Below are positions 5,141 to 24,322 of a DNA stretch of 26,837 nucleotides, piece by piece (position 1 is the first letter of the stretch; the number at the start of each line of letters is the position of its first letter). Under the pieces are notes generated by a model that had not been told where the DNA came from, did no database searches, and saw only the letters and a list, made by a program, of their open reading frames with translations. Made by a program: the position numbers and the translations under genes. Source of the DNA: a virus; the IMG/VR virus record IMGVR_UViG_3300009537_000145, positions 1-26,837 of that record. One strand, given 5' to 3'.

Positions 5141-6543
5141 TACCTACCTCCCGGCGCGGGGGCCTGGACGTTGGGTTGGGGTGCGGATAGTTGTTGTTGG
5201 AGCTGATGGATAAGCTGCTGTAGAAGCTGGATCACATCGAGGTAGTCCTGGGGCGTCAAGTACTCTTCACCCGGCTCTCGGACCGTGGAGCCAGCCTTGG
5301 CCTCCAAGAAGTCTACATATTGCTGGAACAAATTGGCCTGGACGGCAGCTTGCTGCGAAGGAGGCATGCCCGGCGGAATCTGTGCCAAGTCCTCTTGGAA
5401 CAGGGCGGTGATCCCCTCCTGGAGTTGGGAACGCTGGGCAGCCGCGGGCCGGGACGTGTCCTGGAGAATGTCCCTGCGTGACTGGAACTCTTCGCCTTCT
5501 GCCTGCTCCTTATTCACGTCCTCAAGAGTGCGCTGGAAATAGGCTAAGTCAATTGGGGTTGCTCCAATGACTTCTCGAACGCTGAATCCGGTAGACAGCT
5601 TCAACATGGAGTTGAACGCGGGATCAGCATATTGCTGCCTCACCATTTCAACTACCTGCTCGTACCGCGCCTTAATGTCATCGTCTCCTAGCAGCGCCAT
5701 TTCCCCAGGAAGGTTCCTGTCAGGGAAGACAGAGCCAATAATTGTATCGGTGGCTGCTCTAACGGTTGCGGCTGCCTTTTCAAAGCCCTCTAGGACCCGA
5801 GCAGGCGAGAGCGCCTTGGCTTTGGCAACCGATAGGTAGAACAGGGTCGGGGGATCAATTGTTGCTCCCTGGCTTTGGACGGAGCGGATAAACCCATCAA
5901 TCTGCTCCGCAGCCGCAGGACCCAGCTCAGTGAGCTGGTCAATTACCCCGAGAGGCAGCTCTACCGGGCTCGCCTCCGCTACTTCCTGTTCAGCCTGGAA
6001 GGCGGAATAACGAACTTGGAACTCCTGGAAGGCCTTTGGGTCCTCAAGAACCTCCGGGCCAATCGCCATCCCCGACTTTTCTTGGAACTCAATAGACCAT
6101 TGGAGCAGGGCTTGTTGTGCTGCTAGTTCTTCTTCTAGGGTCTCGGCCGATATCCTGGCGCGGTTGGCACTGGCAAGGCGCTCAAGGACTTCTGTTGACG
6201 ATAGCCCCAGGGGATTAATCCCTTGTGCGGCAGCTGCCTCATCTCGCCGTGCGTCAATACCACGTTGGTCTCGTAAGTCTGTTCCGGCCTGAGTCAGCTC
6301 GGTGCGGTGTGTTGCCCCCAGCTCGTTCAGCTTGGTTCGGAAGTTTTGTTGGGACTGGGAGTAAACCTCCCGGGCATCAGCCTGTTGGCCAGCTAGCTGC
6401 TGAAGGGCCATCTGGCGCTCTGTTGTAGCAATCTCCTGGAGCTTCTCCCGAAGGAGGTCTAGCTGGCGTTTCTGGCCCTCAAGGATACCCCCACTCGCCT
6501 CGCGGGCGAACGCCGCATTAAACAGCTTGCCTGCGAAAGCCAC
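5140..6543 (-). CDS. Coiled-coil virion protein, ejection-protein candidate
   Basis: The 467-aa product starts at GTG (6543) with GGAG 7 bases upstream. Its first 170 residues are rich in Gln, Glu, Ala and Arg and look like a long coiled coil (for example RQMALQQLAGQQADAREVY). The middle is helical, and the C terminus has a glutamine run (QLLQQLIHQLQQQL) followed by a Pro/Ala tail. No family was recognised. Its place between two other large non-enzymatic genes downstream of the tail genes suggests an internal virion or ejection protein. It ends one base into the start of the 1132-aa gene. Confidence 0.8.
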   Translation of the reverse strand: MAFAGKLFNAAFAREASGGILEGQKRQLDLLREKLQEIATTERQMALQQLAGQQADAREVYSQSQQNFRTKLNELGATHRTELTQAGTDLRDQRGIDARRDEAAAAQGINPLGLSSTEVLERLASANRARISAETLEEELAAQQALLQWSIEFQEKSGMAIGPEVLEDPKAFQEFQVRYSAFQAEQEVAEASPVELPLGVIDQLTELGPAAAEQIDGFIRSVQSQGATIDPPTLFYLSVAKAKALSPARVLEGFEKAAATVRAATDTIIGSVFPDRNLPGEMALLGDDDIKARYEQVVEMVRQQYADPAFNSMLKLSTGFSVREVIGATPIDLAYFQRTLEDVNKEQAEGEEFQSRRDILQDTSRPAAAQRSQLQEGITALFQEDLAQIPPGMPPSQQAAVQANLFQQYVDFLEAKAGSTVREPGEEYLTPQDYLDVIQLLQQLIHQLQQQLSAPQPNVQAPAPGGR

Positions 6544-7945: not shown

Positions 7946-8742
7946 TAGCGGCCTCCTTGCAGTTGCGACTTGATAAGCATTTCAATAAGAGGACTCATCT
8001 GCTGCATTTGAAGCAGTTGGGCCATAGGCGATCTGCCTGACTGGCTCTCTTGGGCCATCCCCATACTCCCAGCCGCAGTCGGAACGCTCTGTGTCAAAAA
8101 GTTCATGTTCTGCGCAGGCGGGCCTGACAGGACCTGTTCTCCCCCGCCACCGAAAGCGCCAGGAGCAAAAATCCCTTGGCCTAGAGACTGCTGTCCCATA
8201 AGATTAGCGAGCGTGTTACCAACAGCTGCGCCCCAGCCCCCACCCGCTGTCTCACCGCCTTGGGCCAGGAGGTCAGCGATCCCAAGCTGGGTCGGGGACG
8301 ACTGTTGGCCAATTTGCTGGGCCAGGCCAGCAATACCCGCTTGGCGGTTGATATACTCGCGCAGGGGGTTGGCCGCGAAGTCCACGTTGGCAAACTTCTC
8401 CTGTTGGGGCTTGAGGAAGTCAAACTGGGAGCCAAAGGACGTGGGATCAAATGCACCTACAGACCGAGCATTTGCAATGTCAATGTCTTTGAGAGCCTGG
8501 CTGTCAAAGACCATGTCCCCACGGAGGGTTTGGGCTTGCTGCAAGGCCTCGTTGGTCATCTTAGAAGTGTCTTGCAGGGCTTGGGGCAGGTCCCGCTCTT
8601 TGGGAGCACCACCACCAAAAAGCTTGCCCAAGAACGGGGCGGCGAGTTGGCCAATACCAAGCAAGGCTGAGATGAACCCGGCCTCATCGTTGAGCAGGTC
8701 GAGTTCGGGGGGGAACAGAAAGTTAACTACGCGCTTGAACAC
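7945..8742 (-). CDS. Virion protein with hydrophobic N-terminal helix, ejection-protein candidate
   Basis: The 265-aa product starts at GTG (8742), with GGAG 6 bases upstream, and overlaps the end of the acetyltransferase gene by 20 bases. Residues 20-46 form an apolar, glycine-containing segment (FISALLGIGQLAAPFLGKLF) that could insert in a membrane. The rest is rich in Gln, Ala, Gly and Met and ends in repeated MQQM/LLQ patterns. Small proteins with such a membrane-active N terminus are found among podovirus ejection proteins, and this is the first of four candidates in a row. No named family was recognised. Confidence 0.75.
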   Translation of the reverse strand: MFKRVVNFLFPPELDLLNDEAGFISALLGIGQLAAPFLGKLFGGGAPKERDLPQALQDTSKMTNEALQQAQTLRGDMVFDSQALKDIDIANARSVGAFDPTSFGSQFDFLKPQQEKFANVDFAANPLREYINRQAGIAGLAQQIGQQSSPTQLGIADLLAQGGETAGGGWGAAVGNTLANLMGQQSLGQGIFAPGAFGGGGEQVLSGPPAQNMNFLTQSVPTAAGSMGMAQESQSGRSPMAQLLQMQQMSPLIEMLIKSQLQGGR

Positions 8743-9262
8743 GTTTTCTCCATTCGGGCTTAGTTACCCGCATTTGGGCTTGGTCCTGTGGGCCATCAAT
8801 AGTCCACACTGAGAACTTGGTACGGGCCTCTACTTTAAACCCAGCCTTTAGGCCCACGGCAATGGCCCTCTTATTTGAGACAAGTGGTCGGTACGTAATA
8901 CGGTATAGCCCATCTTCCATCCCAATATCAACCGCCTTGGAAAGAATCTGTGGGCCATATCCCTTTCCTTGCTGGCTTGGGGCAACTGTTAGATGTACGT
9001 CCCCGGACTTGTTTGTGGCGTCTAGGTCGGAGAATACAACGTGCCCTACTGGGACTGCCCCATCCCACGCCGCAAACATTCGGATATCTTTAGGAAGGTT
9101 CTCTTCTAAGGCAGTGAGGGCCTTCTGCGCCAGAACTATCCCTGCGGAGCCTCGACCAAAGCCCACCCAGTGGTTGAGGTCTTCATCCTCATGCCACATT
9201 CTTGCTTCGTGGAAGAAAGCTTTACTCGGGGTTCGTAGTTCCAGCACTAACCCACTTCCCAT
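8723..9262 (-). CDS. GNAT-family N-acetyltransferase
   Basis: The 179-aa product has a GNAT fold pattern. It shows an N-terminal strand and helix (LELRTPSKAFF), a VGHVVFSD strand near residue 72, and motif A, VAPSQQGKGYG (residues 93-103), which binds the pyrophosphate of acetyl-CoA. V-S-N-K-R-A-I-A-V-GLKAGF forms the C-terminal half. GNAT enzymes acetylate amines on proteins, sugars or small molecules; the substrate cannot be told. Because the LELR strand belongs to the fold, the ATG at 9262 or the GTG at 9247 is preferred over the inner ATG at 9199, although the ribosome site is poor. It overlaps the upstream gene by about 40 bases and sits among virion genes, so a virion or host-takeover target is possible. 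Confidence 0.85.
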   Translation of the reverse strand: MGSGLVLELRTPSKAFFHEARMWHEDEDLNHWVGFGRGSAGIVLAQKALTALEENLPKDIRMFAAWDGAVPVGHVVFSDLDATNKSGDVHLTVAPSQQGKGYGPQILSKAVDIGMEDGLYRITYRPLVSNKRAIAVGLKAGFKVEARTKFSVWTIDGPQDQAQMRVTKPEWRKRVQARS

Positions 9263-15136: not shown

Positions 15137-15853
15137 CTACTTCACCTGGCCCTGTTTAGAAACCTTGGGGTAGTCGTCTCTATAGTAAGAGGACGGGAAC
15201 TGTATAGGCATGAGGCTGAGCGTCTTGAGGTCTACTAGCAAATCCTGTTCTAACCGCCCGCCCTGGGCCATTAAGAACTGAGCATTCATCCCCGAAATCT
15301 CTCGCAGAGTCTTAGCCGTTCGGGTGACCAGGATCGTGCTGTGGTTGTCTGGCCAAGTAAACACGTCTGTTGCGGTGCTTGGAAAGCTGGGTATATACTC
15401 ATAGCGGAGCAACAGGGCCTTGCTCCCAGCGGTTGTCACCTTGGGGTACAGCCTAAACCCGCCCTGTTGGGGCAGCCAGACTCTTGGAGAGCCCGCTGCG
15501 AGAGTTGCGTGAACAATACCAGGAACCCCCAGCTCAACCTCAGCCCCTTCGGTCTCGTCTGTTTCAAGGCTGGTACCGTCGTCTGCTACCACGGGGGGGC
15601 TTACCAACCGCACGAAGTCCGAGGGCCAGGTATGGACTTGTGTTGAGCTAGTTGCTGTTACCAAGGTCTTCTGAAAGAAGCCTGGCGCATGACGCCGGAT
15701 TAGGTTACAAGCTTGTTTATACTCCTCAGCCCCAATACCATCAATTAGGGCATCGGGGAAGAGCTCATTGACTCCCGTTTTGCCAAATGTTCCCCCAGTT
15801 GCAGGGTCGTTGGCATAGGCTCGAACACGCGTTCGGAATTGGGCTAAGTTCAC
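15137..15853 (-). CDS. Head-tail adaptor (tail tubular A / gp4-like)
   Basis: The 238-aa product begins with helices (MNLAQFRTRVRAYAND) followed by strand-rich sequence containing TWPSDFVRLVSPPVV and ALLLRYEYIP, and ends with helices (TLREISGMNAQFLM). This helix-strand-helix layout and length fit the adaptor that forms a ring between the portal and the tail nozzle. The start is a GTG overlapping the previous stop (GTGA). It stands next to the nozzle-like gene as expected. No single motif proves the assignment. Confidence 0.7.
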   Translation of the reverse strand: MNLAQFRTRVRAYANDPATGGTFGKTGVNELFPDALIDGIGAEEYKQACNLIRRHAPGFFQKTLVTATSSTQVHTWPSDFVRLVSPPVVADDGTSLETDETEGAEVELGVPGIVHATLAAGSPRVWLPQQGGFRLYPKVTTAGSKALLLRYEYIPSFPSTATDVFTWPDNHSTILVTRTAKTLREISGMNAQFLMAQGGRLEQDLLVDLKTLSLMPIQFPSSYYRDDYPKVSKQGQVK

Positions 15854-17172
15854 TTTTTCTTGGCTGGCTTTATGCCCACTGCCAGCAAGTAGCCAGCAAT
15901 CGGCTCAACGAATACGTTCGTAAAAGGCTGCATCAGCTTTGCCAGCTTCGCAGCAGTGTAGGTTCTAACGTGCTCCGGCTCTTCTTCAGGGGGAAGGCGG
16001 TCGTCCGGGACCGAGACCATCACTAGGCCCTCTGGCTTCAAGAGACTATAGAGCTTTTTGATCGCGGCCCCCGGGTCTTCCAAATGCTCTAGAACTTCTG
16101 TGCAGACTACACAGTCATAGCCCTGGTGCATCCCGACAGGAACCGGGTCTTGCACTAGGTCCCACTGCTGGGCGGTAAGACCGAGCGAGTTACACAGCTG
16201 GACTGCCACATCGGACAGGTCCAAACACTCACACGCCGTGGCCACCTGGGCAATCTGGGAGGCCAGAACACCCGGGCCCGACCCCACATCTAGCACCGTC
16301 CAATGGGGCTGGATTCCTGCCATTATGGCGTTATGTAGTGTTGGGTACTGTCTAACTCGCCCAAGCTGGGCCTCCAAGGAGTAAAGCGAATCCCAGTACG
16401 CCTTAGAGTTATAGCCAAACTGTTGGCCAAATGTCTCTTTAGCTTCAACAATCTGGTTCATGGAAGACCAGGCTTCGAGCTGGGGCCACATATGGGCTGG
16501 GTGGTAAACAAAGTTACCTACATGGCCCAGCTCGATGCCAAAGTGTCCGTACGTCCCAAACCCAGCCTTCTGGGCCTTTTGGACAAACACATTGTCCGAT
16601 GAGAAGTGGTGGATGGTTCCGTCTTCTTCCACTTCCGTCGTAGTATGAAACCACGGGTCTTCCAACGCCTCAAGAACAGCTCGCTTAATGAGCATGAAGC
16701 CGGTTGGGATTAGGTCGGCCGGGACTAGCTGGCCCCGACTCTCAAGAGTCCGGGCTACGCACTGCTCTGCGGGGAGTTGGTGTCCCTTCTCATCCGTCCA
16801 GCTAATAAGCGGTCGAAGATTCTCGTCCCGGGAGACATAGAAGCCACCAATAACTCCTGCCTCGGGAGTATCAATAGCTGCTTTAATAAGTGTGTTGAGG
16901 TCCTCGGGAACAAAGACCATGTCCGCATCAATAAAGACTAAGTAGTCAGCAGCAGTCTTTAGAAATGCCTCCGTGATCCCATTTCGTCCCCGCCACACAT
17001 TAGTGGACGTGTGGGTTGCTAAACGAAACTGGTAGGGAAGCGCCCCCAGAGCATTAAAGAGAGACTGAACAGTTTTCTGCTCAATGTCTCGATATGCTGT
17101 CATGCCAATATAGATAATTGGCTGGCTTGGTGTAATAGTGGTGCCCTTTGGGAACTCCAAAGTCTTGCCCAT
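15850..17172 (-). CDS. Glycosyltransferase-like / SAM methyltransferase fusion
   Basis: This 440-aa protein joins two enzyme domains. Residues 18-260 resemble a GT-A glycosyltransferase: an initial strand PIIYIGMTAYRD, a GRNGITEAFL helix, and the DXD-like metal and sugar-nucleotide site FIDADMVF (Asp82, Asp84). Residues about 285-430 form a class I methyltransferase with motif I VLDVGSGPG, an acidic post-I residue in CECLDLSD, and CTEVLEHLEDP. Both active-site motifs look intact. GTs of this build transfer sugars; the methyltransferase may cap or modify the same product. Lying between head and tail genes, the enzyme may decorate a virion protein, or alter a host glycan. No frameshift is seen at the join. 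The ribosome site (AGGG about 11 bases before the ATG) is modest. Confidence 0.85.
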   Translation of the reverse strand: MGKTLEFPKGTTITPSQPIIYIGMTAYRDIEQKTVQSLFNALGALPYQFRLATHTSTNVWRGRNGITEAFLKTAADYLVFIDADMVFVPEDLNTLIKAAIDTPEAGVIGGFYVSRDENLRPLISWTDEKGHQLPAEQCVARTLESRGQLVPADLIPTGFMLIKRAVLEALEDPWFHTTTEVEEDGTIHHFSSDNVFVQKAQKAGFGTYGHFGIELGHVGNFVYHPAHMWPQLEAWSSMNQIVEAKETFGQQFGYNSKAYWDSLYSLEAQLGRVRQYPTLHNAIMAGIQPHWTVLDVGSGPGVLASQIAQVATACECLDLSDVAVQLCNSLGLTAQQWDLVQDPVPVGMHQGYDCVVCTEVLEHLEDPGAAIKKLYSLLKPEGLVMVSVPDDRLPPEEEPEHVRTYTAAKLAKLMQPFTNVFVEPIAGYLLAVGIKPAKKK

Positions 17173-17194: not shown

Positions 17195-17216
17195 CCTGGC
17201 GGGCGAACCCGCCAGG
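17195..17216 (-). terminator. Perfect 9-bp hairpin with TTCG loop
   Basis: Read on the minus strand the element is CCTGGCGGG, loop TTCG, CCCGCCAGG. It lies between the stop of the 147-aa gene and the start of the glycosyltransferase fusion. Such a stem is very stable as RNA. Only a weak T tract (CAAACTTTT) follows, so it may be a partial terminator or a stem that protects or processes the upstream mRNA. Confidence 0.6.
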
Positions 17217-17222
17217 ACTTAT

Positions 17223-17666
17223 TTAGTCAACGTTTGAGAAGAACCAGAAGCACGGCCCGAAGGTGAAGCCTTCGGAGGCCGTCAGGCCTGCCTGGTCAAG
17301 CTCTGCGCGGACCCGAGTAAACTCGGCGTCTCCACAGTGCTCAAACCACGCAAACTTGGAACCAGTCGCAGTAAACTGCGCCAGGTCAGCAACAGTCTCG
17401 CTGTCAGCTGACTGGGGCATGTTTACCCAAGTGGTCCCCTTGTCCGGGCTCTGCTCAATGTCAACGTCAAGGGTACCGTCCGAGCTGTCCTCAGTTGCAA
17501 TATTGATGAAAACGCCGACTCGCGCTGCGCCCTTGGGCGCAGCCGCGTCGGTGTTCGTCTCCGTGGCCGAGTTGACCTCGGTCCCCGACAACAGAACACC
17601 ATCGACCTTCATCGGAACACGCATGCTGGGGGTCGCAGCTTGGCTGTACCCGCCGGAAACACCCAC
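17223..17666 (-). CDS. Beta-rich head-associated protein, decoration candidate
   Basis: The 147-aa product starts at GTG (17666) with a strong GGAGGT 5-6 bases upstream. Its core (VGVFINIATEDSSDGTLDVD, then QSPDKGTTWVNMP and FTRVRAELDQAG) follows the strand pattern seen in small phage beta-sandwich proteins encoded after the capsid gene, which often bind the head surface. Decoration or head-fibre function is inferred from this and from position, two genes after the major capsid protein. No named family is certain. Confidence 0.7.
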   Translation of the reverse strand: MGVSGGYSQAATPSMRVPMKVDGVLLSGTEVNSATETNTDAAAPKGAARVGVFINIATEDSSDGTLDVDIEQSPDKGTTWVNMPQSADSETVADLAQFTATGSKFAWFEHCGDAEFTRVRAELDQAGLTASEGFTFGPCFWFFSNVD

Positions 17667-17731: not shown

Positions 17732-18172
17732 TTATCTAGAGAATCGGTTCCGAGCCTGGTTTAGGTAGGCTTCAACAGCCTCTTGAAACGTCTTGGACGA
17801 CTTGTGACCTGCCGCACCTTGCTCGTTTACAAAAGACCGATCAGTTAACCAACAGTAGACCGTTCCGTTCTCTGCTTTTTCAAAGAAGCTATCGACTAAC
17901 TGGGCCTCGCCGCCATCATCAGAGAAGGCAATGAAGTCCGTGCCGTAGCTAGGGTGGGACATCAAGAGGGAACACAGCTCACCATCCTTAACATCTTGCT
18001 GACCACGCCAGGTTTTACCTTTATAGCGATAGTCGGGGATGCCTTGGAAGCCAACTGTCTTTCCCCACTTCGGGACTCGGCGCTGTCCTTCAACGCCAAT
18101 CTCTTTGATAAATTCAAAGGTCGAGGGCTCAAGAACAACTCGTCCCTCACGCATCCGATGGAAAAATACCAT
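17732..18172 (-). CDS. Hypothetical 146-aa protein after the capsid gene
   Basis: GAGAGGT lies 8 bases before the ATG at 18172, so the start is good. The protein is mixed alpha/beta and basic at the N terminus (MVFFHRMREGRVVLEPSTFEFIKEIG is split here as MVFFHRMREG, then VVLEPSTFEF), with a helical C terminus (TFQEAVEAYLNQARNRF). I do not recognise it. Position between the capsid and decoration-like genes allows a head-completion or structural role. It is flanked by hairpins on the capsid side. Confidence 0.7.
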   Translation of the reverse strand: MVFFHRMREGRVVLEPSTFEFIKEIGVEGQRRVPKWGKTVGFQGIPDYRYKGKTWRGQQDVKDGELCSLLMSHPSYGTDFIAFSDDGGEAQLVDSFFEKAENGTVYCWLTDRSFVNEQGAAGHKSSKTFQEAVEAYLNQARNRFSR

Positions 18173-18250: not shown

Positions 18251-19420
18251 TTACGCACCCAACTGGACGCCCTTGAGGCGACCGCTGGACTTCTCCTGAC
18301 CACGCTGCATGCCCCACTCGGACAGGTACTCGTCCTTGCGACCGTCAACACCTGGAGTCTGCACGTTAGTGCGGATATGGGTGTCACGGCCCTGCAAGAA
18401 GCGGTAGCCGTACTGAGTAAGGTCCACGGCGTAACCACGCTCGCGGATGTGGTCAATGTCCGAGAAGATATTCTCGACCATGAAGTTCAAACGACCATGC
18501 GGGCTAAACCAGCTCTCCAGCGCGATACCGAAGGACTTGGTCTCGGGGACCACTTCCACACGGTTCAAGCCAATGAGCGAGATAGCGTCCGCAACCTCGC
18601 GGGACATGAAGAAGGCGCGGGTCGAAGACTCGCCGTAGCGGAAGATCGGACGGATGAAGCTAACCAGCTCCAAGGTCGTCAGGTTTCCACCCACGTCGGT
18701 CTCGTTGGTAGTAATATGCTCGTCAATACCACCAGTGGTACGAATTGGAGTCGAACCAGAAGTTACCTGCTTCTTCTGACTAAACCAAGCGGCCAAGTTC
18801 TGCTTGCGCAGATGTTGGATACCGTTCTTGCTGGCCTGGTACGGGAAGTCGGGCCCCCCGTAAAGGTCAGACGCGATCAGGGTTCCCGTGAGCTCGAACG
18901 GAGTACGGGAAATGGTCGTGTAGTTGGTGTCAGAGGTCTCCAGAACCGACTTACCACTCCCAACATCGGCACCTTCAGCATTGCTGTCGGTTAGGATGAA
19001 GATGGGCTCGTTGTCAACCACCGCGGCGTTATTGCTAGCGCCGGAATAGTCACGACCCACAGTAATGGTGGAGTCAGTTGCTGAGATGGCCGTAACACGG
19101 AACATCTCATCAATGCGCGGGAACAGGCCCAGAGAGCCAACAACGAAGTACTCATCATTGTCAACCTTCAGGACGGTGTCAGTAGCGGTATAACCAGCCG
19201 CTGAGTTAATGGCTGTGACGACGGGCAGAAGCTCGTCCTTCATCACCTTAAACTCAGGGTTGTATACCGACTCCCGGTCCAACCGCGACAGGAGAACCGT
19301 TAGAGGCGAGGCATTTGGCTCTAACAGGAGAATCTTCTCGTGCATGTCGATGATACGACGTACAGCGAGAATCCCCTGGTCGGCGGCGGTAGCGCGAGCA
19401 TTCTCACGAATGGTAGCCAC
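18251..19420 (-). CDS. Major capsid protein, DUF5309 / SU10-like
   Basis: The 389-aa product has the length and sequence style of the SU10-type (DUF5309) major capsid proteins, which take the HK97 fold. Visible blocks are the early KVMKDELLPVVTAIN, the mid-protein RTPFELTGTLIASDLYGGPD, a RKQNLAAWF helix, and FFMSREVADAISLIGLNRV. The start is GTG at 19420 with GAGGT 8 bases upstream. It follows a scaffold-like gene and a promoter, as expected for a protein needed in hundreds of copies per particle, and is followed by strong hairpins. Confidence 0.9.
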   Translation of the reverse strand: MATIRENARATAADQGILAVRRIIDMHEKILLLEPNASPLTVLLSRLDRESVYNPEFKVMKDELLPVVTAINSAAGYTATDTVLKVDNDEYFVVGSLGLFPRIDEMFRVTAISATDSTITVGRDYSGASNNAAVVDNEPIFILTDSNAEGADVGSGKSVLETSDTNYTTISRTPFELTGTLIASDLYGGPDFPYQASKNGIQHLRKQNLAAWFSQKKQVTSGSTPIRTTGGIDEHITTNETDVGGNLTTLELVSFIRPIFRYGESSTRAFFMSREVADAISLIGLNRVEVVPETKSFGIALESWFSPHGRLNFMVENIFSDIDHIRERGYAVDLTQYGYRFLQGRDTHIRTNVQTPGVDGRKDEYLSEWGMQRGQEKSSGRLKGVQLGA

Positions 19421-19434
19421 TACTAATTACCTCA

Positions 19435-20358
19435 CTACCCGAGGAAGACTCCTCGTTGCTGGGCGTCGTCGCCGCGAGCGGCGTTGACAATTGCCTCAGC
19501 AATTCGGTCTTCAACGGAAATTTCATTGTCTGTGCCATCAGAGGGCGCAGACACGTTTCGGGAAGGAGCCGAAGGACGCATCACCGAGGACGACTGTCGG
19601 GCCGGTTGGGCCTGATAAGTCTGTGCCTCAGCCTGCGGCCGGGTGTTCCCCTGGCGTCTCAGGGTCTCTAGCTCGATTAGGCGATATACGCCTTGAGTAG
19701 ACCGTGCCATTGCACTGTCACTTTGGAGTTCTCGCCCAAGCCAAGTTTCAGAAAAACTCTGGGGCGTTCCATTACCACGACGGACTAGGTCAATAAAGTC
19801 ACCAACCACTTCCGCCGCAGCCGGGCCTAAGTCCTGGACTGCCAGGTCCACCTGGCGCAGAATGTTGCGCTCAGCGGCCTGCACACTGGCCGTAGCCTGT
19901 TGCACCAGATCCCGCCGACGCTGGTCTTCACTCATACGGCCTTGAGTCCTAGCGTCGAGATGCTCCGCGAGAGCAACAAGGGCCTTTTCAGGATTTTCCT
20001 TGTACTTCTCAGCAAAGAGCTGTGCGGTCTCTGCATCCAGCACGGGGTCGGGCTCCGGTTGGGGTTGCCGTCCCGCCGAGGCACTTTGCATTGCCTCGTA
20101 TCGCTGGTTTTCCCGCTCCAGCTGTCCAATGAACCGGTCCTTATCAGCGAGCCGCCCATTCAGCTGCTCGTAATTCTGACTTAGCCGCTCCACTGTAGCC
20201 TGGAGTGTACTCAGTTCGTCCTGCCTATTGTTTGTTCCATCCTCACTTTGCGCGGTCTGCGGTTCGCTAGGGCTGTATCCCGACAAATAAATGTCGTCGG
20301 AATCCTCTACCTGCTCACCGCCTCGTCCCGTGAGGGTCTGGACAGCTTGCCTAAGCAT
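19435..20358 (-). CDS. Capsid scaffolding-like protein
   Basis: The 307-aa product is hydrophilic and highly helical. Residues 47-90 form a coiled coil (ELSTLQATVERLSQNYEQL), followed by a Pro-rich hinge, a helical domain and a disordered Pro/Gln/Ser tail ending near an acidic helix. Such proteins lie directly upstream of capsid genes and guide capsid assembly. A promoter with a leader of about 12 bases precedes the ATG, and the ribosome site is weak. The last codons form a 6-bp inverted repeat (19440-19455, CGAGGA/TCCTCG) close to the capsid start. Scaffold identity is from build and place, not from a motif. Confidence 0.8.
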   Translation of the reverse strand: MLRQAVQTLTGRGGEQVEDSDDIYLSGYSPSEPQTAQSEDGTNNRQDELSTLQATVERLSQNYEQLNGRLADKDRFIGQLERENQRYEAMQSASAGRQPQPEPDPVLDAETAQLFAEKYKENPEKALVALAEHLDARTQGRMSEDQRRRDLVQQATASVQAAERNILRQVDLAVQDLGPAAAEVVGDFIDLVRRGNGTPQSFSETWLGRELQSDSAMARSTQGVYRLIELETLRRQGNTRPQAEAQTYQAQPARQSSSVMRPSAPSRNVSAPSDGTDNEISVEDRIAEAIVNAARGDDAQQRGVFLG

Positions 20359-20377
20359 TCAGATTAAACTCAATTCT

Positions 20378-20406
20378 ATCTTACCACGTTGGTGGAAGAT
20401 TGTCAA
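20378..20406 (-). promoter_or_regulatory. Internal sigma70-like promoter for scaffold and capsid
   Basis: On the minus strand TTGACA (20401-20406) is followed after 17 bases by TAAGAT (20378-20383). The -35 is perfect and the -10 matches four of six. It lies in one of the few non-coding gaps in the head cluster. Transcription would begin about 12 bases before the scaffold ATG. A small GCCC/GGGC hairpin (20407-20420) abuts it upstream and may mark the end of the previous transcript. Confidence 0.7.
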
Positions 20407-20421
20407 GCCCTTAGTCGGGCG

Positions 20422-20652
20422 TTAGTTAACTGCCTTTTCGCCAAGCTCAGTATTTGGCACGCCTTCACGGCCAACCATTACCGGAGACTTCGGCTTTACG
20501 GGCACAGCGTCGATGCTGGACCCACCACTAATACTAAACCCAGCCTTAACACCCGACTGGTACGCGCTACCAGAGCGGGCCTTGGTTTCTGAGCCCGGCT
20601 TATCCGTCTCAGGGGGACCAAAGCGGCCACCCGGCTTACTAATGACTCCCAT
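20422..20652 (-). CDS. Hypothetical 76-aa protein
   Basis: The start is set at ATG 20652 because AGGAG lies 5-6 bases upstream; a longer reading from 20712 would overlap the previous gene by about 60 bases and lacks such a site. The protein is basic and rich in Gly, Ser, Pro and Lys (MGVISKPGGRFGPPETDKPG), so it is probably disordered. It lies between the portal-side genes and the scaffold. Function is unknown. Confidence 0.65.
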   Translation of the reverse strand: MGVISKPGGRFGPPETDKPGSETKARSGSAYQSGVKAGFSISGGSSIDAVPVKPKSPVMVGREGVPNTELGEKAVN

Positions 20653-20653
20653 G

Positions 20654-20962
20654 TTAGCTCCTGCGGGGGTCGATGGGGCTAGCACCCAAGTAGGCGGGGT
20701 CCGGATCATCAATCGTGGTCGATTGGTCCTTAGAGACTGCTAGAGTCTCAGCAGCTGAGAATAACTGTCCCACTGCTTTTACTCCAGCAATAAACCCCTG
20801 GTCATGCCACAGGTCGGGGATGCTAGCGATCCCCCTGTGGCTTACTAGTCGTTCCTTACGGCTCTCAACTAGCTGGTCTAGCCAGCTAAATATTACGTTT
20901 CCAACGTCGGTCCGACCAAGCTCGGTTAGGGCCTGGGCCGTTCCTCTATCCATGTCAAACAT
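20654..20962 (-). CDS. Hypothetical 102-aa protein after the portal gene
   Basis: GGAGGG lies about 8 bases before the ATG at 20962, which starts two bases after the portal stop. The protein is helical in the first 80 residues (VGNVIFSWLDQLVESRKERL, then GFIAGVKAVGQLFSAAETL) with a Pro/Asp-rich tail. No motif was recognised. Small helical proteins in this place may help in portal or scaffold interactions, but that is only a guess from position. Confidence 0.7.
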   Translation of the reverse strand: MFDMDRGTAQALTELGRTDVGNVIFSWLDQLVESRKERLVSHRGIASIPDLWHDQGFIAGVKAVGQLFSAAETLAVSKDQSTTIDDPDPAYLGASPIDPRRS

Positions 20963-20964
20963 TA

Positions 20965-22761
20965 CTATCCGCCCTCCGCTGTTCCAAGAACATCTCGGAT
21001 GTTAGGGCCGTCTTCGACGGCCGGGGGCGAGCCGGGCTGACCGCCCGAGGCCTCCACATTAGCCGGATTTGGCTGAACAGCCAAGAGTTCTTCATCAATG
21101 TGAATATCGCCCAGGTCCAGAATACGTTTGATCAGCACCTGAATAGCTGGGTGGTTTGGGTCACCGTACAGCTGCATGAAGATTTGCAGAAGGTTCATAT
21201 CCTTCTGGAGCTTCATTTCGCGGTTAATGGGATCAGTCGCCCCAATGTCCAACTTGACGTCCAAGAGAACGCCATTAGTGGCTAAGTCGGCGGGACCAAG
21301 CTTCTGGTGCAGCAGACCCTCCGGGCCCACAATCTTAATCGTTTGCTCCGTCTCCATATGCTGCTCATTAAGAGAAATGAGCATCTCGCCCAGTGGCTCT
21401 AAGCCCATAGACGAGAGCTGGAGAAACTTCATTCCAACACGGGACGCCGCCGCCTGGGCCAGAATCGAGGCCCCGGTTGCTGTCTCCTGTTGTAAGTCTG
21501 AGCCCACCCCCTGGAAGTTATCGTTCGCGCCCGTCGCAATCTGAGCCCATGTCCGAAGCCCGTCTTCCTCACGGTAGAGGGCCATATTAGGCTGGTGCTG
21601 GTACAGAGGCTCGATGTCGTCTTGCTGCGTAACCCAGACAATCCCGCTGGGTTTGAACTCAGTGGTATTAGGAGTGATAGGACTTCCGAGTCGAACCTTC
21701 CACATCTGGAAGACAGAGCGGTTAACGCTCTCTAGGCGCAGGTTGTGGAGAGCATTCAGTTCTGTGGCAATCGACTCCAGGACCTCGGGCTCCCCGACCC
21801 CATAGAACTCGCCCGGAAGCGAGTTGTCTACGATCCGGAGGTAAGGCTTCTTACCATGCCAGAACGGGTTGTAGTCATTAACCAGGATTTCCTCTGGGTC
21901 CGTGACCACAACACAGTACCGCCCGTCTTCCCAATACTCAACCAGCTCGAACTCCCAAATCTGGGCTCGGTTCTTGGCTTGCCTGGAATCCGACGTTCCA
22001 AACGTTCCCTCGCGGTCAGTCTTTAGCTTATCCTGCCCACTAACGTCCGCGTTCGAGAGATGCTTGTCTTTTAGCCTCTTAACCGCTCCCATGTCCCAGC
22101 CAAGCTCTTTGGCCAGGGCCTCAATTTCCCAGTAAGTCTTTTTGCTACGCTCACAGACGTAGCGAGCATTGACAATATCAGGAGCGCCGGGCTCGGGGTA
22201 GAAGTTCTCTAGTGGGACCAGGGCAATAAACGGAGCGTCCCGGACTACAAACTCTGGGTCTTCCGCTTCAGCGGAGCGGCCGTCTTCCGTGCTCATCCGG
22301 AACTTCCGGTGCATCGTCTTTTTTTCCCACCCAGTTTTAACGATGCCGGTCCCGTAGATTAAGGCTTCTTTTTCCCACTGCTCAATTACCATCGGGATCT
22401 TGAGCGCGGACCACTGGTAGTCTAAAACCTGTCGATGGTTTGCCGCGGCGGGGAGCTTCTCGTCTCCCCTGGACTCAACAATAATGCTGGGCTTCTGGGT
22501 AACAAGGCGAGGGAGAAAGGACTCAACCGTAGACCACACCAGGGGAATGAACAGGCTGACACTATGTGGCCAGTTCTTCCGTTCAGCGTAGGAGCGGTAT
22601 AGCTTATACCAACGCTGCCACTGCGTCTCTTTCCCAGCTCTCCAGTCCTTCGCCGCTTCCCACCGCTCCAGAGCCAGCTTCATCATCTCCTTATCAGGGA
22701 GAAGCTGGTTCGGGTCCGTGTTGAACGGAGGCTGGCCAGTGTTGATCGGGGACTCAGCCAT
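20965..22761 (-). CDS. Portal protein, podovirus type
   Basis: The 598-aa product follows the large terminase and has the portal layout: an N-terminal helical part with WQRWYKLYRSYAERKNWPHS, a region that reads VWSTVESFLPRL, a conserved QWEKEALIYGTGIVKTGWE block (about residues 127-145), a wing, and a C-terminal helical part (NREMKLQKDMNLLQIFMQLY). Portals form the ring at one capsid vertex through which terminase drives DNA and to which the tail binds. The ATG shares one base with the stop of the 35-aa gene. The Pro/Gly-rich last 30 residues are probably flexible. Confidence 0.9.
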   Translation of the reverse strand: MAESPINTGQPPFNTDPNQLLPDKEMMKLALERWEAAKDWRAGKETQWQRWYKLYRSYAERKNWPHSVSLFIPLVWSTVESFLPRLVTQKPSIIVESRGDEKLPAAANHRQVLDYQWSALKIPMVIEQWEKEALIYGTGIVKTGWEKKTMHRKFRMSTEDGRSAEAEDPEFVVRDAPFIALVPLENFYPEPGAPDIVNARYVCERSKKTYWEIEALAKELGWDMGAVKRLKDKHLSNADVSGQDKLKTDREGTFGTSDSRQAKNRAQIWEFELVEYWEDGRYCVVVTDPEEILVNDYNPFWHGKKPYLRIVDNSLPGEFYGVGEPEVLESIATELNALHNLRLESVNRSVFQMWKVRLGSPITPNTTEFKPSGIVWVTQQDDIEPLYQHQPNMALYREEDGLRTWAQIATGANDNFQGVGSDLQQETATGASILAQAAASRVGMKFLQLSSMGLEPLGEMLISLNEQHMETEQTIKIVGPEGLLHQKLGPADLATNGVLLDVKLDIGATDPINREMKLQKDMNLLQIFMQLYGDPNHPAIQVLIKRILDLGDIHIDEELLAVQPNPANVEASGGQPGSPPAVEDGPNIRDVLGTAEGG

Positions 22762-22868
22762 TACTTAGCTTTCGGGGCCCGCTGGAGCGGAATAGCTGGG
22801 TCCTTATCAATCTGATCAAGGACGGAAGGAAGGATGGCAATAACAATCTTTAGTATCTTAACCCACAT
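22761..22868 (-). CDS. Hypothetical 35-aa hydrophobic peptide
   Basis: An ATG at 22868 shares one base with the terminase stop, and the frame ends in TAA sharing one base with the portal ATG, so it fills the space between those genes exactly. The product is MWVKILKIVIAILPSVLDQI followed by a Pro- and Lys-containing tail, and the first 18 residues could form a membrane or amphipathic helix. The ribosome site is a modest GGGA. It is too short for most gene callers. Function is unknown. Confidence 0.6.
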   Translation of the reverse strand: MWVKILKIVIAILPSVLDQIDKDPAIPLQRAPKAK

Positions 22869-24322
22869 TATAGTCCCGCTGATGGTCGGCCCTCCCAACG
22901 ACCTGGATTAGGTTCGGTGGGCGGCATTTCAAGGTCTTGAGGTCGGAGAAGAAGCTCACTAACGTACCGGGGCTTCATCGCCAGAATGTATCGGAGTGCG
23001 TCCGGCCGGTGGTTGTTGTACGCACGGGGCCGGTCAGGGTCATTCTTTTCAATAACGACGGAGCGGTTCTCGTCCCACTCGTACTGGACCAGGTCCTTTC
23101 GTAGCCCAGGGCACGTCTCATAGCAGATATAGACCCGGGGCCCAGTTGGATTGGCCTCTTTAGTGGCGCGGAGGTACTCGGCCACTGTCTGAATTCCATA
23201 CGGAATGTCATTGACCGCCTTAACTGAGAAAATTCCGTACTTCGCGTAGTTTTCCTGCGTGGTATGGCCGGTCTGGTTGTTGGTTTTGGCCGCGTCAGGG
23301 TCAATATAGGTAGTTAGAACTGGGTATCGAGTCTTTGCGGCAATATTCTCCGCATGTTCCTTGACCAGGGCCCCCGACAGCGAGTACTCGTCATAGATAT
23401 AGACGTTGTGATGGGGGTCTACAGCCGCCCACAAGCACGCAGTAGGATTGGCTAGGCCAATATCTACTCCTCGGTAGTGCGTCCAGTGGGGCGAGATGTG
23501 GATATAGGACGGATTGTCCGGATCGTTGCTAAAGCAATGCCCCCCTTTGTGTTTGTAGGTGTCTGAGAAGTCCGAGTAGACAACGCCTTTCTTAGCCTCG
23601 AACGACGCTTCATACTCTTGACGGTAAGTCGCCGGATCTGTTCGACGTCTGATGTCGTCAAGTTCTGTGGGGTCCAAGTACGGGTTATCCGCCGTTTTAA
23701 TGTGTGAACGAGACCAACCAGCCAATTGCCCAACTTCCACCCCTCCCTCTGACCAGAGGTCGTAGATCCAATTATATCCTCGGGGAGTTGTAATGAATAG
23801 TGCCCGGCCTTTCTGGTCAACCAGGGTCGGGCCTAGGTAGGTATCCCATATTTCTGAGGCCACCTGCGCCGCCTCGTCTAAGACGAGTAGGTGGAGGCCC
23901 TCGCCCAGAAGGCCCTTGGGGTTCTCACAGGTCTTGCCTTCAATGAAGCCACCCCCAGCCAGCTGGATGAATCGCTGTCCCTTTGGATCGTAACTGGCTC
24001 TTACTACGGCTCCCGATCCCAAGCACTCGTTTTCAACAATGGCCTTGTAGACAATACGGAAGACCTTGTCTGTGAGTGGGTATGTGGGCGCTGCAATCCA
24101 AATCCGTCGTCCCGGCCACGAGGCTTCTTCAATGACCTCGTTGGCCGCGCCTTCTGACTTCCCCGCTCGCCTGCCCCAGACCCCAACGTGGTACCGCCAG
24201 GGCTTATAGTGTATGAGCTCTTGGCCCCCGTGAGGAACGTGCCCTAGGGCTGCGAAGAATGCTTTCTTATACTCAACCCGGAGGTCCCAGTCAGAGTAGA
24301 TGTCGGAGAGCTGTGCGTTCAT
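22868..24322 (-). CDS. terL: Terminase large subunit
   Basis: The 484-aa packaging motor has a clear ATPase domain: Walker A GRRAGKS (residues 50-56), Walker B LLVLDE (145-150) and a coupling motif FITTPRG (176-182). The C-terminal nuclease, of RNase H type, shows the three acidic positions in RGVDIGLANP (about 285), TYIDPDAA (about 340) and HRPDALRY (about 440). It cuts concatemeric DNA and pumps it through the portal. All key residues look intact. It follows the small terminase and a 77-aa gene; no good ribosome site precedes its ATG, so coupling to the upstream gene is likely. Confidence 0.96.
   Translation of the reverse strand: MNAQLSDIYSDWDLRVEYKKAFFAALGHVPHGGQELIHYKPWRYHVGVWGRRAGKSEGAANEVIEEASWPGRRIWIAAPTYPLTDKVFRIVYKAIVENECLGSGAVVRASYDPKGQRFIQLAGGGFIEGKTCENPKGLLGEGLHLLVLDEAAQVASEIWDTYLGPTLVDQKGRALFITTPRGYNWIYDLWSEGGVEVGQLAGWSRSHIKTADNPYLDPTELDDIRRRTDPATYRQEYEASFEAKKGVVYSDFSDTYKHKGGHCFSNDPDNPSYIHISPHWTHYRGVDIGLANPTACLWAAVDPHHNVYIYDEYSLSGALVKEHAENIAAKTRYPVLTTYIDPDAAKTNNQTGHTTQENYAKYGIFSVKAVNDIPYGIQTVAEYLRATKEANPTGPRVYICYETCPGLRKDLVQYEWDENRSVVIEKNDPDRPRAYNNHRPDALRYILAMKPRYVSELLLRPQDLEMPPTEPNPGRWEGRPSAGL

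Follow-up and report, generated by a model that had tools for sequence, protein, structure and literature searches.

A glycosyltransferase-methyltransferase fusion gene in the head module of an SU10-type phage: a candidate virion-glycosylating enzyme

Covalently bound sugar has been reported for the virions of mycobacteriophages and, in the literature that we searched, hardly elsewhere. The capsid of mycobacteriophage Che8 carries glycans (Freeman 2023, as cited in PMC11256854), and in Rhodococcus phages the presence of a glycosyltransferase (GT) plus a methyltransferase has been read as a sign of glycosylated virions (PMC13313380). The essential A197 protein of the archaeal virus STIV (PDB 2C0N) has been proposed as a possible glycosyltransferase for the capsid protein of that virus, which is known to be glycosylated (PMC10551542); Asp151 of A197 has been named the catalytic base (PMC4187194). 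Phage GTs are also known to hypermodify DNA (Pyle 2024, as cited in PMC12619734). The 26,837-nt stretch of viral DNA analysed here (the window; positions 1 to 26,837 of IMG/VR record IMGVR_UViG_3300009537_000145) holds a gene that an earlier note, made from the sequence alone, had described as a 440-aa fusion of a GT-A-like domain and a class I SAM methyltransferase, lying between the head genes and the tail adaptor. Pfam matches both halves, and the flanking genes that it recognises are head and adaptor genes of SU10 type, in agreement with that description. The features considered are:

15137..15853, minus strand: SU10-type adaptor (PF24175, E 2.6e-10; coordinates)
15850..17172, minus strand: GT-methyltransferase fusion gene (P0001), 440 aa (continuous ORF; Pfam and PHROG matches)
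15928..16314, minus strand: predicted class I SAM methyltransferase half, Pfam residues 287-415 (Methyltransf_23, E 6.7e-18)
16270..16296, minus strand: SAM-binding motif I, VLDVGSGPG, residues 293-301 (sequence)
16453..17130, minus strand: GT-A glycosyltransferase half, residues about 15-240 (AlphaFold, structure match, phrog_1574)
16522..16524, minus strand: H217, a C-terminal His that is invariant in the GT family (family alignment)
16591..16602, minus strand: S191-S192-D193-N194, the ED motif with its Glu replaced by Ser192 (alignments)
16921..16929, minus strand: DXD motif (D82-A83-D84), metal and nucleotide-sugar site (D82 and D84 invariant in the family alignment)
17195..17216, minus strand: 9-bp GC hairpin with a UUCG loop, in the gap that separates orf147 from the fusion gene (-20.2 kcal/mol, z -2.3)
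17223..17666, minus strand: 147-aa decoration-like head protein, candidate acceptor (homologue of the same length and position in L243, E 3e-6)
17732..18172, minus strand: 146-aa protein after the capsid gene (match to L243 orf164, which has a C2H2 match)
18251..19420, minus strand: SU10-type major capsid protein (MCP), favoured candidate acceptor (PF17236, E 3.4e-36)
19435..24322, minus strand: scaffold-like gene, small orf, SU10 portal and terminase large subunit (Pfam, PHROG; synteny with L243 and L002)

In order of transcription the module comprises the terminase large subunit, SU10 portal, scaffold-like gene, SU10 capsid gene, the 146-aa and 147-aa proteins, the fusion and the SU10 adaptor. 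The adaptor start overlaps the fusion-gene stop by 4 bases, and the fusion gene is probably co-transcribed with the head genes. The hairpin at 17195-17216 is a possible attenuator or processing site and may lower the level of the fusion relative to the abundant head proteins. No RNA families or tRNAs were found in the 26.8-kb window, nor were replication genes recognised there. Because the model of the 147-aa protein is not confident (pLDDT 34), its putative decoration role rests on its position and its homologue. The 146-aa protein appears to be of a zinc-finger type in relatives, to judge from its sequence matches; the post-capsid protein of two related phages (L243 9040-9531 and L119 3248-3622) ends in a C2H2-type zinc finger, which is unusual for a phage head module. 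The window also carries, among tail-region genes, a GNAT acetyltransferase gene (8723-9262, minus strand), whose product is a further enzyme of the structural module that might modify proteins.

The fusion gene runs on the minus strand, for which the earlier note gave no strand, from an ATG at 17172 to a stop at 15850 and has no internal stops; the plus-strand reading of 15850-17172 is riddled with them. A chimeric assembly is thought unlikely, since a single frame spans both halves and the stop overlaps the adaptor start. An IMG/VR scan with the fusion protein as sole query returned no close relative, and relatives were therefore reached through alignments. The Methyltransf_23 form of the fusion is known from one contig only: none of the GT relatives found has it, so the same fusion, proposed earlier as something to seek in related phages, was not found beyond the window contig. 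The nearest phage (L002), whose capsid protein is 81% identical, is on a contig that stops just past the capsid gene, which accounts for the single sighting. A whole-protein search of 289 genomes from the class of one alphaproteobacterial MAG gave separate GT or methyltransferase matches and no fusion.

The structure of the GT half could be predicted with confidence: AlphaFold pLDDT is mostly above 90 over residues 20-230. Compared with solved structures, residues 18-229 match STIV A197 best (Z 20.5, 2.2 Å over 171 residues), and the next matches are human LH3, mimivirus R699, yeast Mnn9 (Z 16.5) and COLGALT1, so that the fold search suggested earlier for the N-terminal half did find a GT-A fold. 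Several of the latter four are protein glycosyltransferases; Anp1/Mnn9 (GT62) and the collagen GTs (COLGALT1, LH3) share the fold of the window GT at Z 16-18. STIV A197 resembles the window GT in fold, DXD motif, aligned catalytic Asp and viral origin, but it has no methyltransferase domain, belongs to an unrelated type of virus and is only 17% identical. In Pfam, Glycos_transf_2 covers residues 61-123 (31.4 bits, cut-off 23.3). PHROGs assigns the first half to phrog_1574 (E 5.4e-18), a family annotated there as 'unknown function', and the second half to methyltransferase families. The Anp1 (GT62) profile does not match the window protein at E 0.1, while two relatives from the same head position (L126 and L067) pass the Pfam cut-off. 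The usual form of the family is a stand-alone protein of about 210-270 aa, and its profile also retrieves STIV A197 by sequence (E 2.6e-9).

In a family alignment of 24 rows R63, D82, D84, D193 and H217 are invariant. The DXD reported earlier at residues 82-84 is there as DAD, and D193 falls opposite D151 of STIV A197, its catalytic base and the Asp of its GED motif. The earlier statement that both halves have intact motifs needs a correction: DXD, D193, H217 and motif I are present, whereas the ED motif has Ser in the window protein at position 192, where the family almost always has Glu. This replacement could change or weaken activity. Taken further, it would mean that the GT half is degenerate and merely binds the virion or docks the methyltransferase; with R63, the DXD, D193 and H217 all kept and the frame open, we regard this as highly improbable.

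Phage sugar transferases had been expected to sit elsewhere; for this family (PHROG 1574, which all head-slot GTs tested match) placement in the head module turns out to be common. In our local survey 33 distinct viral records, covering several capsid lineages, have a GT 0.2-2.4 kb downstream of the MCP gene and in the same orientation; this figure is descriptive because the capsid references were taken from GT-bearing loci. A less biased count, although its records are still selected by GT similarity, comes from 50 GT-bearing viral records: nine have a Pfam-detected capsid gene anywhere, and in seven of these the GT lies within about 1 kb downstream, against about 0.7 expected by position alone.

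The position survey proposed in the earlier note gave a positive answer in two phages related to the window by their capsid protein, where a stand-alone GT occupies the slot of the fusion. In L243 the order is MCP, orf146 homologue, 147-aa homologue, GT (28% identical to the window GT, E 8e-25) and an adaptor-position orf; in L119 it is MCP, small orf, GT and SU10 adaptor. Phages with shorter SU10-type capsids (L067, L126, L154 and MW202496) have the MCP, usually one small orf, the GT and an adaptor-type gene. In the L136 group, with a gpT-like capsid protein, a small orf separates capsid gene and GT, and in the HK97/lambda-portal phages L070, L281, L285 and L287 a decoration-like orf does so. 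In the isolate Microcystis phage Mel-JY34 the GT follows the capsid gene immediately, with no intervening gene, so that a shared acceptor would most simply be the capsid protein. The slot shared over several capsid lineages strengthens the earlier suggestion, made from the place of the gene, of a virion protein as target. Its list of targets is narrowed: a fibre is less likely than a capsid or decoration protein, as the genes common to all slots are head genes.

In the tree the head-slot GTs cluster (4 changes versus a shuffled mean of 19), and the window joins L243 (SH-aLRT 89) at a node that is not starred and with both on long branches. Members of the same family occur in the replication regions of HTVC027P and Cr30 and fall apart from the window. 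In L244 (8603-9208) the post-capsid slot holds a GT2 of another kind, truncated where the contig ends, with an N-terminus similar to the small post-capsid protein. Elsewhere, in cyanophages (L037 3845-5672; L029 1-3360), family GTs lie near baseplate wedge genes and a 2OG-Fe(II)/prolyl-4-hydroxylase-like gene; together with the LH3/COLGALT1-like fold this arrangement resembles, by analogy, hydroxylation plus glycosylation of a tail protein. In an alphaproteobacterial MAG (L163 7986-9352) two adjacent family GTs have flagellin-like filament genes and a GT1-like gene as neighbours. Contig L095 has a separate GT2-Methyltransf_11 fusion and a GT of the window's family (5248-6510 and 2050-2853), and on the same contig a deaminase-like gene and a dNMP-kinase-like gene.

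The distribution of the family bears on two other targets. The enzyme might glycosylate phage DNA, as GTs that make hypermodified bases do (the Pyle 2024 work, as cited in PMC12619734), with methylation as a further step, and wider-family GTs do lie among replication genes (HTVC027P, Cr30) or beside the dNMP-kinase-like gene (L095). Those GTs belong to a separate part of the tree, however, and base-hypermodification genes were not recognised in the window, itself a fragment that lacks the replication region. The T4-type DNA glucosyltransferases, moreover, have the GT-B fold, whereas the window GT is GT-A. We consider a DNA target quite improbable. The second possibility is a host target: during infection the enzyme would act on surface or soluble glycans of the host, for instance to prevent superinfection, and late expression would be the sole reason for its place in the head operon; a head-operon position can indeed reflect expression timing alone. 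Bacterial surface-glycan pathways commonly include GT2-type enzymes and sugar methyltransferases, and related GTs occur in bacterial genomes, one of them beside the filament genes of L163. Serotype-converting Gtr enzymes, on the other hand, have transmembrane anchors, and the window protein has no strongly hydrophobic segment (highest 19-residue mean 1.34). A host-directed gene would also not need the capsid-adjacent slot that is kept over several capsid lineages, and we find this possibility unlikely.

Modification of a virion protein is the reading that we prefer, and the C-terminal half would add a second step to it. This half scores 65.4 bits against Methyltransf_23 (cut-off 27) and carries motif I, given earlier as near residue 290 and located at 293-301. 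Its pLDDT is below 50 across most of its length, and its assignment as a putative class I SAM methyltransferase rests on Pfam rather than on a confident model. Methyltransferase fusions are few among the surveyed head-slot GTs, yet the window is not the sole case: an FkbM domain is fused to the head-slot GT in L070 and L281, and a Methyltransf_24 domain in L285. These fusions resemble that of the window in GT family, in domain order and in directly following a capsid gene and decoration-like orf; they differ in their methyltransferase families, their HK97/lambda-portal phages and their intact SED motif. TylF and FkbM are O-methyltransferases. One GT family thus carries three methyltransferase families (Methyltransf_23, FkbM and Methyltransf_24), always C-terminal, which implies that head-slot GTs gained methyltransferases repeatedly and independently, and such repeated gain in turn suggests that both halves act on one product.

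Che8 offers a parallel: its GTs are phage-encoded as well, and gp108 is a fusion of GT2 and Methyltransf_24/TylF. The Che8 GTs gp108-gp110 nonetheless belong to other subfamilies (hhalign probability 0.1-2.2%) and other PHROG families, and their genes lie at 56-59 kb with the capsid gene at 5 kb, in contrast to the GT in the head module of the window. Phage virion glycosylation being already known, what is new here is the fused methyltransferase, uncommon though recurrent (L070, L281, L285; Che8 gp108). The two halves could instead act separately, the GT adding sugar to a virion protein and the methyltransferase acting on an amino-acid side chain of that target. PMC13288928 points to methylation of proteins in phage systems, and sequence cannot tell what the C-terminal half methylates. 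The recurrent fusions, with FkbM, Methyltransf_24 and Methyltransf_23 domains, are a better fit to O-methylation of a sugar or small molecule, and the Che8 fusion matches TylF; we hold separate action to be improbable.

Our proposal, which we consider reasonably probable, is that the fusion O-glycosylates a protein of the virion, in the simplest case the capsid protein, and then O-methylates the added sugar. The enzyme would be cytoplasmic, expressed late and virion-modifying. Its GT-A half would take a sugar from a nucleotide-sugar of the host and attach it to a hydroxyl side chain on an abundant head protein, either the major capsid protein or, alternatively, the 147-aa decoration-like protein, and the C-terminal half would cap that sugar by SAM-dependent O-methylation. 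The resulting particle would be coated with methylated sugar, and its surface and recognition would be altered.

For PHROG 1574 as a whole we see an even chance that it is a general virion-glycosylation module of tailed phages, with the GT following the capsid gene in SU10-type, gpT-like and HK97-type phages and at least three methyltransferase families independently fused to it to yield a methyl-capped glycan. Related GTs in the same place of many unrelated phages suggest that self-coating with sugar, sometimes methylated, is far commoner than has been recorded. The capsid-adjacent GT family and the repeated methyltransferase fusion make virion glycosylation testable in a cultured phage, Mel-JY34. 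If this broader reading is true, virion glycosylation would be a trait not just of a few actinobacteriophages but of a large share of tailed phages in the environment; many virions would bear glycans, methylated in some cases, with consequences for their structure, persistence and immune recognition and for the annotation of PHROG 1574.
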